NCBI GenBank assembly: GCA_003132445.1
Contig: PKXU01000201.1
Location: 62,001 to 126,000 of the forward strand
DNA from: Acidobacteriaceae bacterium
GTDB lineage: Bacteria; Acidobacteriota; Terriglobia; Terriglobales; Acidobacteriaceae
DNA: 64,000 bases
Direction: 5' to 3'
The notes below the pieces were generated by a model. The model ran no database searches, had not been told where the DNA came from, and saw only the letters and a program-made list of their open reading frames with translations. Below, piece after piece: positions 1-25,031 of the stretch; the stretch's first letter is position 1; every line of letters begins with the position of its first letter. The position numbers were made by a program, and so were the translations under genes.

Positions 1-630
1 GGTAAAGGTCGCGGACTGATTTGCAACTACCGAATAAGTATCTCCGCCACCGGTAACGCGTCCTCGACCATGCCACACAGTGACAATGGATTGACTGCCG
101 TCCTCGCTCACATCCACGCGATATTCGCCCGGCTGCAATAAGCTGAAGGCTATGTTCGGAGTATCGACCTCATAGTTGTCGTCATCGTCGACGTGACGCA
201 CGCGCAGAATCAGCGATCCCTGCGCCAGCCGGATCTGCGTGGTGTGGTCGTCGAGGGTAAGGAATGTGATTCCGGTCTTTGCGCCCATCCGGATGGCTGT
301 AGAACCGATGTGAACTTCGGCGCGAGAATCCTCGTCGGCCCAGAGGTCATCGCCAGAAACCATGGGGCGGTTGGGCACACCAGAAACCCAGTCGTCTTCT
401 CCGGCTGGACGGAACGAGATGGAACCTTCGGAGAAATCCAGGCGGGCAACCCGGCCCGGAGGATCCTGAGCCTGATCTTCGTCCGGATTTTGTTGACCTT
501 GGTCCGGATTTTGATTCTGATCCGGATTTTGGTTTTGCCCGTTGTCCTGCGCTTTAGCCGCGATCGAAACTTGCAGGACAAATACAAGGCTGGCGATTAA
601 AATCCAGGTCCACCACTTGCGTGTCTTCAT
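1..630 (-). CDS. FecR-like (DUF6600-type) secreted protein, 3' end outside window
   Basis: Runs from ATG at 630 leftward without a stop, so only the first 210 codons are present. Residues 1-27 are a signal peptide (basic MKTRKWW, hydrophobic core, AKA-Q cleavage region). Residues 28-60 form a Gln/Asn/Pro/Asp-rich linker with NQNPDQ repeats. From about residue 62 the sequence (RVARLDFSEGSISFRP, then alternating short beta strands such as STAIRMGAKTGITFL and LLQPGEYRVDV) resembles the FecR-like fold of large Acidobacteria proteins of the DUF6600 type. Exported protein, probably envelope associated; partner unknown. The family name is by recall of pattern, not a search. Confidence 0.75.
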   Translation of the reverse strand, partial: MKTRKWWTWILIASLVFVLQVSIAAKAQDNGQNQNPDQNQNPDQGQQNPDEDQAQDPPGRVARLDFSEGSISFRPAGEDDWVSGVPNRPMVSGDDLWADEDSRAEVHIGSTAIRMGAKTGITFLTLDDHTTQIRLAQGSLILRVRHVDDDDNYEVDTPNIAFSLLQPGEYRVDVSEDGSQSIVTVWHGRGRVTGGGDTYSVVANQSATFT

Positions 631-796
631 AGGTCCGCCCCGACGCAGATAAAATTTGTAGGTTTTATGTTACCGACAACCCTGTAAACACAATAGAGAT
701 GGTTTAGTTTCCCTGAGTACGGAAGTGCTTGGACGGTGGGAACTTAATACGGGAAAAAGGTGCAACGTCTCTTCGCTGCAATTCGCAATGCCCGAA

Positions 797-824
797 GCAG
801 AGACGTAGCAAGATACGTCTCTGC
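797..824. repeat. Perfect 11-bp stem hairpin (dispersed-repeat type)
   Basis: GCAGAGACGTA (797-807) pairs perfectly with TACGTCTCTGC (814-824) around a 6-nt loop. It lies in the otherwise empty 631-841 gap, 18 bp past the stop of the peroxiredoxin gene. There is no T-tract, so it is not a classical terminator, though it may protect the mRNA 3' end. A related partial copy (GCAACGTCTCTTCGC) lies at about 761-776. Confidence 0.7.
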
Positions 825-841
825 GAAGGCGCACGCGACGA

Positions 842-1405
842 TTAATTTTTCAGCTTGGGACGCTGACAGGTGTCCACGATCTTTGTGGGATCGATAGCGT
901 CTTTATCCACTTGCTCTTCGATAATCTTTCCGTCTTTTCCAATCAGGAAGTTGACGCGGCGGGCGGCTTGATATTCGTCTTTGTAGATGCCGTATTCGCG
1001 AGTTACTTTTCCTCCCCAATCGCTGAGAAGAGGAAATGTCACTCCGATTTGGTCGGCGAAGGCTTTATTGGCGAAGGGACTATCCATGCTCACACCCAGG
1101 ACCTGGGTGTCGGCTGCTTCCAGCGTTTTGAGGTTCTGCTGGAGAGCCTGCATTTGCTTTGTTCAACCGCCAGTGAACGCGAACACGTAGAAGGCTACTA
1201 TGACGTTCTTCTTGCCGCGGTAGTCACTCAGCTTCACGTCTTTCCGGTCGCTGCCGTCGAAATATTTCAGTGTGAAGTCTGGCGCCGTGTCGCCCACTTT
1301 GGGCATGCTCGAACTCGCATTCTGGGTCTGCGCGAACGCCGGCGATGCCGCTGCGATCGCGAGAAACAAACCCAAACCTAAAACCGCAGATCTGTTTCTT
1401 TTCAT
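842..1405 (-). CDS. Exported peroxiredoxin with in-frame UGA (probable selenocysteine) at the peroxidatic site
   Basis: AhpC/TSA-type peroxiredoxin that would reduce peroxides in the periplasm. Start ATG 1405 follows GGAGGAG and opens a signal peptide (about 1-26, ending SPAFA). Residues 34-80 are a thioredoxin-fold N-half ([12 protein letters not shown]). Codon 81 (1165-1163) is TGA in the context FAFTGG-UGA-TKQM, exactly where the family has its catalytic Cys (TxxC). The same frame then runs on for 106 conserved codons ([37 protein letters not shown]) to TAA at 842. A second Cys is at 180 (DTCQRP). A 6-bp stem UCCAGC/GCUGGA (1143-1138/1124-1119) sits about 20 nt 3' of the UGA, where a bacterial SECIS would be. 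Sec-containing peroxiredoxins are a known class. The alternative is a nonsense mutation or sequencing error; gene finders would split it into two ORFs. Confidence 0.85.
1119..1143 (-). promoter_or_regulatory. Candidate bacterial SECIS hairpin
   Basis: In the peroxiredoxin mRNA, UCCAGC (1143-1138) can pair with GCUGGA (1124-1119) across a 13-nt loop. The loop starts 25 nt after the UGA codon, within the spacing typical of bacterial SECIS elements. Found by eye, no folding energy computed; the loop does not obviously carry a strong consensus. Confidence 0.4.
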
Positions 1406-1572
1406 TGAACTCCTCCACAGTAGGATCAGCGTTCCCTGCCGAAGCCGCCGGGTAAACCGATCGGTACCTAACGAAGTGATTGTACGCATTGCTCAAAGCG
1501 GCAACAAAACAGTACAGTTCTGTCCATAGTCACTTCTACGGGATAAACTGCGATCGGGCCCCGAAAGACGCA

Positions 1573-3429
1573 ATGAGCATAGCTACTCTGAATGATATTT
1601 TCTTTACCGCGGTCGAACGCAATCTTGACCGCATCATGCTCTACCGCGAAGCCGGAAAATGGCTGCCGGTGACTTCCCGCGAATTCGGCCAGGGAGTGGC
1701 GAGAACGGCACGCACGCTCCATTCCTGGGGTATTCAGCCGGGCGATCGAATTGCCATCTTAAGCGAAAATCGGCCGGAGTGGCCCATGGCCGATCTGGCC
1801 AGTCTTCTGCTCGGGGCAGTTACAGTTCCGCTTTACACCACGCTCACGGCAGAACAAACCGCATTTGTTTTGAATGACTCGGGCTGCCGGATTATTTTTT
1901 TGTCTTCCGATCAGCAGTTGCACAAAATTCTCTCCGTATTGCCCCAGACGAAGATCGACAAAATTGTGGTCATGGACGCGCTGGAGTTCAACGGAGATCT
2001 CGCCCCGTTCGCCGGCAAGTGCGTGCACATGAATCAAATCACGGCGGAAGGTGCAGAAAACTTAGACGCCGAAATCGAAAGCCAGGCGCGCTCGGTTCGT
2101 CCCGACGAGCTGGCCACAATCGTTTACACGTCGGGAACGACTGGCACCTCTAAGGGAGCAATGCTGACGCACGGCAACATCGCGTCTAACATTAATTATT
2201 CGCTACATGGATTCGAAATGCGGCCCGGAATGGTCAGCATTTCATTTCTGCCGCTCTGCCACATTACGGCGCGTCACGTAGATTTCGCCATGCTCTATCA
2301 CGGAGTGACGCTCGCCTACTGCCCTTTCCTGGACCGGCTTTCCGCGAGTTTATTGGAGGTGAAACCCTCTGTGTTTGTTGCGGTGCCGCGGGTTTACGAA
2401 AAAATCTATGCGCAGGCTGCGCAGAAAGCCAAGGGTTTTCCGAAGCGCGCTATTTTTAACTGGGCTCTTTCCGTTGGACGACGCTATAAGCCAGACATTC
2501 TCGCGGGAAAAACACCAACATCGCGCAGGTGGAAGTTAGCCAACAAACTAGTGTTTTCAAAAATTCGCGAAGGCATGGGCGGCCGAGTGGAAACGTTCAT
2601 CTCTGGCGGCGCGCCGCTGGGACGCGAACTGGCCGAGTGGTACGCCAGCGTCGGCATCCGCATCCACGAAGGTTATGGGCTCACGGAAACTTCACCCGTG
2701 ATCGGGGTGAACACGCCCGTCAATCACCGCATCGGAACCGTGGGCAAGATTTTGCCCAACCTGGAAGTTCGCATCGCGGAAGATGGAGAAATCCTGGTAC
2801 GCGGGCCTTCCGTATTCAAAGGATACTGGAACCGACCGGAGGAAACGAAAAGCGCATTTGACGATATTCAAATAAACAATGGCCATTTAAACGATGGCCG
2901 AACAAACGATGGCCGGATAAACGATGGCTGGTTCAAGACCGGAGACATTGGCCACATCGACGCCGATGGATATCTTTCTGTCACCGATCGCAAGAAAGAT
3001 TTGATCAAGACTTCCGGCGGAAAATCTATTGCGCCGCAGCCGATCGAGAATTCGCTCAAGCTGAGTCCGCTGGTGGGCGTCGCGGCCATTCTCGGCGATC
3101 GACGAAAGTTCCCGGCGGTTATGATCTCGCCTAACTTTGTTCTTTTGGAAGATTGGGCTCGCACCAATAACATTCCCTTTGCCTCGAGGCAGGACCTTGT
3201 CGCTCATATTAAAGTGCGAGAGCTCTACGAGGGCATCATCGAAGGCATAAACCAGAATCTGGCACGCTTTGAAAAGTTGAAGCGGGTGCTGGTGGTAGCC
3301 GACGAATTCACCGCCGACAACGGAGCCTTGACGCCGACGATGAAGCTACGGCGCAAGGTAATCGAGGATCGCTACCGCAAGCAGATTGACGAACTCTATG
3401 CGCAGGCGGAAGCGACAGCCTTGCAGTAG
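1573..3429 (+). CDS. fadD: Long-chain acyl-CoA synthetase (AMP-forming)
   Basis: ANL-superfamily adenylating enzyme of 618 aa that activates fatty acids to acyl-CoA through an acyl-AMP. Motifs in order: P-loop YTSGTTGTSKG (185-195), YGLTETSP in the middle, the hinge FKTGDIGHIDADGYLSV followed by DRKKDLIK, and the C-terminal LTPTMKLRRK with the catalytic lysine region. The chosen start MSIATLNDIFF at 1573 matches the usual N-terminus; the frame is open further upstream to 1480 but that overlaps the peroxiredoxin promoter region. Unusual: four 15-bp tandem repeats (2875-2934) encode NNGHL-NDGRT-NDGRI-NDGWF just before the hinge motif. No linked fatty-acid genes. Confidence 0.9.
   Translation: MSIATLNDIFFTAVERNLDRIMLYREAGKWLPVTSREFGQGVARTARTLHSWGIQPGDRIAILSENRPEWPMADLASLLLGAVTVPLYTTLTAEQTAFVLNDSGCRIIFLSSDQQLHKILSVLPQTKIDKIVVMDALEFNGDLAPFAGKCVHMNQITAEGAENLDAEIESQARSVRPDELATIVYTSGTTGTSKGAMLTHGNIASNINYSLHGFEMRPGMVSISFLPLCHITARHVDFAMLYHGVTLAYCPFLDRLSASLLEVKPSVFVAVPRVYEKIYAQAAQKAKGFPKRAIFNWALSVGRRYKPDILAGKTPTSRRWKLANKLVFSKIREGMGGRVETFISGGAPLGRELAEWYASVGIRIHEGYGLTETSPVIGVNTPVNHRIGTVGKILPNLEVRIAEDGEILVRGPSVFKGYWNRPEETKSAFDDIQINNGHLNDGRTNDGRINDGWFKTGDIGHIDADGYLSVTDRKKDLIKTSGGKSIAPQPIENSLKLSPLVGVAAILGDRRKFPAVMISPNFVLLEDWARTNNIPFASRQDLVAHIKVRELYEGIIEGINQNLARFEKLKRVLVVADEFTADNGALTPTMKLRRKVIEDRYRKQIDELYAQAEATALQ
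2875..2934 (+). repeat. Four 15-bp tandem repeats inside the acyl-CoA synthetase gene
   Basis: Units start at 2875, 2890, 2905 and 2920 with the core AAC(A/G)ATGGC(C/T). In frame they encode an N-D-G-x-x pentapeptide repeat that ends exactly at the conserved W/F-K-T-G-D hinge motif, so the reading frame is kept. Confidence 0.85.
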
Positions 3430-24434: not shown

Positions 24435-25031
24435 ATGAGATTGTCTGCCGCGACTCTGAGTAAGATAGTTTTCCCTGCGCTGGCATCCGCAGCAGCATTG
24501 ATCCTAGCTATGTCCATCACGCCTTCGTCGACGTTCGCCGGCCCAAGTCTCTACAGCTTTACGCTCAATTCCGTTGATGGCAAGCCCGCGCCTCTGGCGG
24601 AGTACAAGGGCAAAGTCGTATTGCTAGTGAATGTGGCCAGCCAGTGCGGTTACACTCCGCAATACAGCGCACTCGAAGCCATCTATGAAAAATACAAAGA
24701 GCAGGGTTTCGTCATCCTGGGCTTTCCGGCGAACAACTTCGGTGCACAAGAGCCGGGAACGAATGAGGAAATCAAGACTTTCTGCACGCGCAAGTACAGC
24801 GTCAGCTTCCCGATGTATTCGAAAATCTCGGTGAAGGGAGCGGACCAGGCGCCGCTGTATACCTATCTCACCAAGGATACCGGCGCGGGCATTGCCGGCG
24901 ACATTAAGTGGAATTTCACCAAGTTCCTGGTCGACAGGAATGGAACCGTTGTGCAGCGCTTCGAGCCAGCTGTCACTCCGGATTCGAAGGAAGTTACCGC
25001 GGCGATCGAGAAACAGCTTAACCAGCAATAG
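24435..25031 (+). CDS. Exported glutathione peroxidase (cysteine type)
   Basis: 198 aa. ATG follows AAGGAGTAAGGA. Signal peptide about 1-35 (LASAAALILAMSITPSSTFA). Family motifs: VNVASQCGYTPQY with the peroxidatic Cys encoded as Cys, LGFPANNFGAQEPGTNEEI, KWNFTKFLVDRNGTVVQRF with the catalytic Trp-Asn. Bacterial enzymes of this type generally use thioredoxin. In contrast to the peroxiredoxin at 842-1405 it does not use UGA. Confidence 0.92.
   Translation: MRLSAATLSKIVFPALASAAALILAMSITPSSTFAGPSLYSFTLNSVDGKPAPLAEYKGKVVLLVNVASQCGYTPQYSALEAIYEKYKEQGFVILGFPANNFGAQEPGTNEEIKTFCTRKYSVSFPMYSKISVKGADQAPLYTYLTKDTGAGIAGDIKWNFTKFLVDRNGTVVQRFEPAVTPDSKEVTAAIEKQLNQQ

Follow-up and report, generated by a model that had tools for sequence, protein, structure and literature searches.

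Selenocysteine (Sec)-containing peroxiredoxins with a TxxU active site are already known from PMC1088965, PMC1794560 and PMC13188914, and in PMC13188914 the extended motif PxxxTxxU is called highly conserved. The same paper gives a model of the bacterial SECIS element (bSECIS) with an apical loop of 3–9 nt, a G at loop position 1 or 2, a spacing of 16–37 nt, a stem of 4–16 bp and an energy of -7.5 or lower, and reports that some putative elements fail this model, indicating distinct classes. For the Acidobacteria, PMC1794560 counted four selenoproteins in three families in 2006, and PMC12013277 gives three known selenoprotein genes for Occallatibacter riparius. The titles and abstract openings of part of the matching literature, in which few subscription papers were represented, contained no description of the acidobacterial Sec peroxiredoxin family treated here or of its large-loop hairpin.

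The locus described here lies in a 64,000-nt stretch of DNA from an Acidobacteriaceae bacterium (the window). It belongs to an already known type of selenoprotein gene, and its recoding hairpin and active-site motif depart from the described pattern. Compared with the Sec peroxiredoxin Prx, as described in PMC13188914 and PMC1088965, the window protein shares the AhpC/TSA domain, the Sec codon at the peroxidatic TxxU and the presence of the Sec machinery; however, the Sec forms of its family have Val/Ile in place of Pro, and it scores far under the NCBIfam PrxU cut-off. Its probable export and conserved tail Cys may also set it apart from the listed Prx.

Among proteins of known structure, Mycobacterium tuberculosis AhpE (Rv2238c) was the best PDB sequence match (8.5e-23). 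AhpE is titled a 1-Cys peroxiredoxin, whereas the window protein has Sec at the active site, begins with a probable export segment and carries a conserved Cys near its C-terminus. AhpE and the archaeal Bcp1 and Bcp4 were also among the 50 Foldseek matches shown; the archaeal Bcp peroxiredoxins are Cys enzymes.

Taken as a whole, the gene very probably encodes a Sec-containing and probably exported peroxiredoxin, in which SelB would decode UGA81 with the help of a large-loop hairpin and Cys180 would probably act as the resolving residue.

The peroxiredoxin gene, its product and its homologues

The first-pass annotation had proposed two halves of one peroxiredoxin in a single frame, parted by one TGA at the catalytic Cys position. 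Both points could be confirmed, as the halves lie in one minus-strand frame at 1163–1489 (up to the TGA) and 842–1153 (beyond it), and the UGA falls in a column where four homologues have Cys. Read-through of 842–1405 gave MKRN...VFAFTGG-U81-TKQM...TCQRPKLKN, 187 residues with a single TGA. In this group of soil bacteria, ordinary annotation would take the locus for a pseudogene or a pair of fragments. The features of the locus are collected in Table 1.

Table 1. Features of the peroxiredoxin locus, in window coordinates
Feature	Position	Strand	Basis
CDS of 187-aa AhpC/TSA-family peroxiredoxin with one in-frame UGA	842..1405	-	translation; PF00578; Foldseek
UGA codon, residue 81, peroxidatic position of TGGU, presumably read as selenocysteine	1163..1165	-	translation; alignment; TGA in relatives
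Probable signal peptide at the N-terminus (MKRN...SPAFAQ), roughly residues 1–26	1328..1405	-	by-eye sequence reading
Codon of Cys180, the one Cys outside position 81 and a putative resolving residue	866..868	-	tail-Cys conservation
SECIS-like hairpin, 8-bp core, columns 21–28 with 42–49 (UGA = columns 1–3)	1117..1145	-	folding; alignment; synonymous recoding
13-nt apical loop AGAACCUCAAAAC, begins 25 nt past UGA	1125..1137	-	folding; SECIS-constraint test

The window protein matched PF00578 with 123.9 bits against a gathering score of 26, and it combines the AhpC/TSA domain with the TxxU motif (TGGU) that defines a Sec peroxiredoxin. Seventeen NCBIfam models were matched, none at its cut-off; the PrxU model (NF040737) gave 87.7 bits, far under its cut-off of 270 bits. 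The AlphaFold model, built with 39 sequences, reached a pLDDT of 86.2, and in it a helix spans residues 79–90, with residue 81 on its first turn. The 50 Foldseek matches shown out of 1292 were peroxiredoxin-family entries judging by their titles; M. tuberculosis AhpE (4x1u) was matched at the level of fold with an rmsd of 1.8 and 37% identity. A hydrophobic run of at least eight residues within the first 40 was found in 122 of 125 unique homologues, and the sequence suggests that the window peroxiredoxin is probably exported, either to the periplasm or to the cell envelope.

Scanning a named genome collection with an alignment of the window family revealed at least 597 stretches, of which at least 566 encoded a relative. 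The best 80 were analysed, a set biased to close relatives because the loci were chosen as those most like the window protein. The codon for residue 81 was TGA in 80/80 of these loci (the best 80 of at least 566 confirmed relatives); L134 and L153 each also had a motif match outside the gene, which was set aside. By record title, 78 of the 80 were acidobacterial and two (L196, L200) were titled only bacterium; Ca. Sulfotelmatobacter, Pyrinomonadaceae, Blastocatellia and one Thermoanaerobaculia record were represented among these best 80 of at least 566. In 150 related genomes, a set overlapping with the 80 named loci, a TGA-bearing homologue at E<=1e-30 was present in 82 by hand count, the own genome included.

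Cys occupied the UGA column in four homologues at similar scores, three of which were placed by alignment (L123, L124, L126) and one read separately (L125); Cys-form homologues were found in genomes G121, G122, G125 and G135. L125, which the motif filter had missed, is absent from the motif and Cys counts over 125 proteins, from the tree and from the SECIS-constraint test. The tree (125 rows, unrooted, no outgroup) split with a support of 100/100 into clade A, which includes the window protein and has 79 rows, and clade B, which has 46. The three Cys rows were placed among the Sec rows of clade B, in an unrooted tree with weak local support (83/66).

The active-site motif revealed a departure from the published pattern, as the Pro of PxxxTxxU, seven residues before the active site, is Val in the window protein. 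Among the 125 unique proteins, Val or Ile occupied this position in 121 of 122 Sec forms and Pro in one, whereas the three Cys forms counted there all had Pro; with the fourth Cys form (L125, Val at -7) added, Pro is present in three of four. That Sec forms have lost the Pro suggests a relaxed constraint on the active site when Sec is used. Exactly one tail Cys was present in 124 of the 125 unique homologues, and in 94 of those 124 it stood 99 residues past the Sec/Cys. In the proposed mechanism, SelB would bring Sec-tRNA to UGA codon 81, aided by the downstream large-loop mRNA hairpin; the exported Sec81 would attack and reduce peroxides, becoming a selenenic acid; and Cys180, from its own chain or from the partner chain, would then probably resolve the oxidised Sec81, as the second redox residue of a 2-Cys peroxiredoxin mechanism would.

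The hairpin downstream of the UGA codon

A hairpin after the UGA had been noticed in the first-pass annotation. The structure proved to be real and conserved, with an 8-bp core beginning 17 nt past the UGA, but its 13-nt loop is not that of an ordinary bacterial SECIS. A longer fold of the window hairpin spans 1112–1148 and begins 14 nt past the UGA. An Rfam scan of window positions 600–1700 gave nothing near a gathering score.

The published bSECIS constraints were applied in our own implementation, with clade labels assigned by locus number; these labels agree with the main bipartition in the tree. The window hairpin falls within the published limits (PMC13188914) as a stem-loop in the coding region with a loop spacing of 25 nt, a stem of 11 bp counted across bulges and an energy of -13.7 kcal/mol, below -7.5. 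It differs in its apical loop, which has 13 nt instead of 3–9. The loop G is not strictly conserved in the clade, the loop starting with AG in the window and with AA in L027, L045 and L046. No hairpin with a 4-bp stem and a 3–9-nt loop could be found at that spacing in the window gene, even when the G condition was dropped.

In clade A, one of 78 unique sequences (L179) passed all bSECIS constraints, leaving 77 without a conforming hairpin. A large-loop hairpin (10–15 nt, -7.5 or lower) was present in 72 of the 78 and, at -7.1 to -7.4, in five more; the exception, L183, titled Thermoanaerobaculia, had a GUC loop at -6.2. In clade B, 25 of 42 sequences passed the bSECIS model (37/42 at a threshold of -5) and none had the large loop (0/42). 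The Cys genes gave 0/3 for the model and 0/3 for the large loop, and random other positions in the same genes gave 30/306 and 9/120 for the model and 25/306 and 9/120 for the large loop. The hairpin type follows the split between clades A and B, since the tree separates the two at 100/100. All ten Sec selD genes tested, seven of them from the window's family, carried an ordinary SECIS.

Whether the large-loop hairpin is itself a signal was evaluated from the sequence constraint on it. The hairpin alignments comprise 50/51 and 16/17 genes, as L106 and L117 were excluded for their indels; both are included in the SECIS-constraint test. Folded alone, the window hairpin was unremarkable against dinucleotide shuffles (z -1.54, 16/200 as good). 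Against synonymous recodings with own codon usage, the z score was -3.34 for the window gene and averaged -2.59 over 51 clade A genes, and the hairpin region had the lowest mean z of 29 positions along the gene, being the most structured in that clade. The corresponding dip in clade B was weak (-0.7, n=17), and another part of the gene showed one at least as deep. For the three Cys genes the values were -0.27 and -0.17 at the hairpin position and -1.55 elsewhere.

Sec might be inserted here and SelB might nevertheless read another signal, so that the large-loop hairpin would reflect a coding constraint or some other RNA constraint. The 13-nt loop and the loosely kept loop G are compatible with that explanation, as is the limited covariation, in which a single pair of the eight accounts for all six double changes, each from C-G to G-C; neither doubly changed pairs nor pair types were more numerous than in shuffled alignments (445/500 as high). 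We nevertheless regard it as unlikely, since it is at the hairpin that synonymous sites show the gene's strongest structure signal. The 8-bp core was paired in 94.1% of cells in the 50 aligned clade A genes, against 18–52% for slid versions, and the percentage paired and the covariation score exceeded all 500 shuffles, with relatedness uncorrected. Moreover, the stem Gln codon was CAG in 50/50 genes and the stem Leu codon CTG in 50/50, compared to 65% and 53% elsewhere in the same genes, and a model-conforming hairpin that SelB could read instead was lacking both in the window gene and in the rest of clade A apart from L179.

With the large-loop hairpin preferred as the signal, we lean, by a modest margin over even chances, towards a change in the architecture of the recoding signal within one orthologous selenoprotein gene of the Acidobacteriota. 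The Ca. Sulfotelmatobacter lineage would have the large-loop hairpin (8-bp core, 13-nt loop) in place of a compact SECIS with a GGC/GUC loop, and selD in the same family, presumably served by the same SelB, would have stayed compact. SelB would then read two SECIS classes; separately from this change, Sec use would go with the loss of Pro. The window gene would escape any search that relies on the published bSECIS constraints. Two hairpin types in orthologous genes, together with an ordinary SECIS in selD, make the recognition needs of SelB directly testable.

Decoding of the UGA codon and the selenocysteine machinery

In its own genome, a draft assembly of 203 contigs with 87.5% completeness, selB (362.5 bits, cut-off 242.25) and selA (541.4 bits, cut-off 267.9) could be identified. 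An Rfam search for tRNA-Sec returned tRNA-Leu, Cys, Ser and His only, and a tRNA-Sec model built from 18 relatives had no match in this genome; both searches fail because a contig break cuts the tRNA-Sec gene. At the start of own contig C24 (locus L231), the contig breaks off inside tRNA-Sec with 20 nt visible, and these equal the first 20 nt of tRNA-Sec in the sister genome G018 (20/20; other relatives 10–19/20). A same-looking peroxiredoxin gene, alike by eye, stands upstream of tRNA-Sec in G018 and G013 and upstream of the C24 break, where it is of the Cys type.

No selD was found in the 87.5%-complete assembly, where three matches under the cut-off are presumably ThiL-, HypE- and PurM-like. 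When the selD region of G018 was compared with the own genome, its first 2.2 kb matched, along with scattered short or repeat matches. Of the machinery that the first-pass annotation had predicted, selA, selB and the 5' end of tRNA-Sec were thus recovered, but selD was not.

Among the 150 related genomes, selA was detected in 126 (124 over the cut-off), tRNA-Sec in 115 and selD in 124 (123 over the cut-off). Rfam tRNA matches of 49–53 bits (G008, G055, G059, G084, G097) and a weak selD match (G031) were scored as negative. With these weak matches removed, all 82 genomes with the UGA gene had at least one of selA, tRNA-Sec and selD, and none of the 20 genomes without any of the three components carried the UGA gene (Fisher p 2e-8, relatedness uncorrected). 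The UGA gene was absent from 68 genomes, 48 of which do have machinery. Within the 82, selA was absent in two, selD in four and tRNA-Sec in 12.

Besides the own genome, tRNA-Sec was scored as missing by Rfam and our own model in 11 UGA-gene genomes. G008 and G097 had weak Rfam matches only, and the other nine had none or matches of 38–45 bits with our own model, which we take to be other tRNAs. In G035 (97% complete, about 20 contigs), G045 and others, the Sec gene and selA were present and tRNA-Sec was not found by the model searches, which may mean that the tRNA is divergent, lies in an assembly gap or escaped the search.

Decoding of the UGA as another amino acid, through a reassigned code or a suppressor tRNA, is very improbable. 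The selD gene not found in the own assembly would fit it, but TGA terminates 10 of the 33 long open frames of the window (stop-to-stop, at least 300 codons, overlaps included), the column is Cys in all four non-UGA homologues read, and the UGA gene tracks the Sec machinery. Together with the TGA in 80/80 loci (the best 80 of at least 566), selA and selB, this tracking supports the earlier proposal that the UGA is read as Sec.

A pseudogene or a sequencing error, in which the TGA would be a chance nonsense mutation or a wrong base call, could be imagined in a draft of 203 contigs at 87.5% completeness, but it is hardly credible for a codon that is TGA in all 80 of those loci, which lie on other contigs, in a protein conserved beyond the TGA. 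The in-frame ATG at 1153, 9 nt past the UGA, could serve as the start of a second small protein or as a restart site in translational coupling, but the chance of either is negligible, as the predicted active-site helix 79–90 would be split and protein conservation runs unbroken across the UGA in 39 aligned proteins.

Further selenoprotein candidates and neighbouring genes

Three of the 20 PF00578 matches in the own genome contained a TGA, namely the window gene, L234 and L246. L234:1438-2169 (own contig C176) encodes an AhpC/TSA protein with an in-frame TGA at FYRGYWUPFC, of the UxxC type, and is likely a further selenoprotein of this genome. After its UGA, a small-loop hairpin can form at -5.6, which does not reach the energy threshold, and so can a large-loop hairpin of 12 nt at -16.3. 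L246:1204-2013 (own contig C65) encodes a deiodinase-family protein (PF00837, 106.9 bits against 27) with the TGA at SYTUPPF, and our test identified an ordinary small-loop SECIS there (loop GGU, -12.2).

Two TGA-bearing peroxiredoxin genes were observed side by side in L119 and L120, and also in G134:C112 and G140:C24, in genomes of family f5; the second gene type in L119 and L120 has KAFTSGU. Immediately upstream of the window peroxiredoxin gene, a divergent AMP-binding gene of the acyl-CoA ligase type begins (window 1480–3429), and the antisense of an AMP-binding gene was also seen by eye upstream in several relatives. Short repeats (tccggatttt) were noticed by eye at window positions 480–560, in a neighbouring minus-strand frame. 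The other peroxidase of the window (24435–25031), which the first-pass annotation had described as using ordinary Cys, was indeed a GPx-family protein with Cys (NVASQCGYT).
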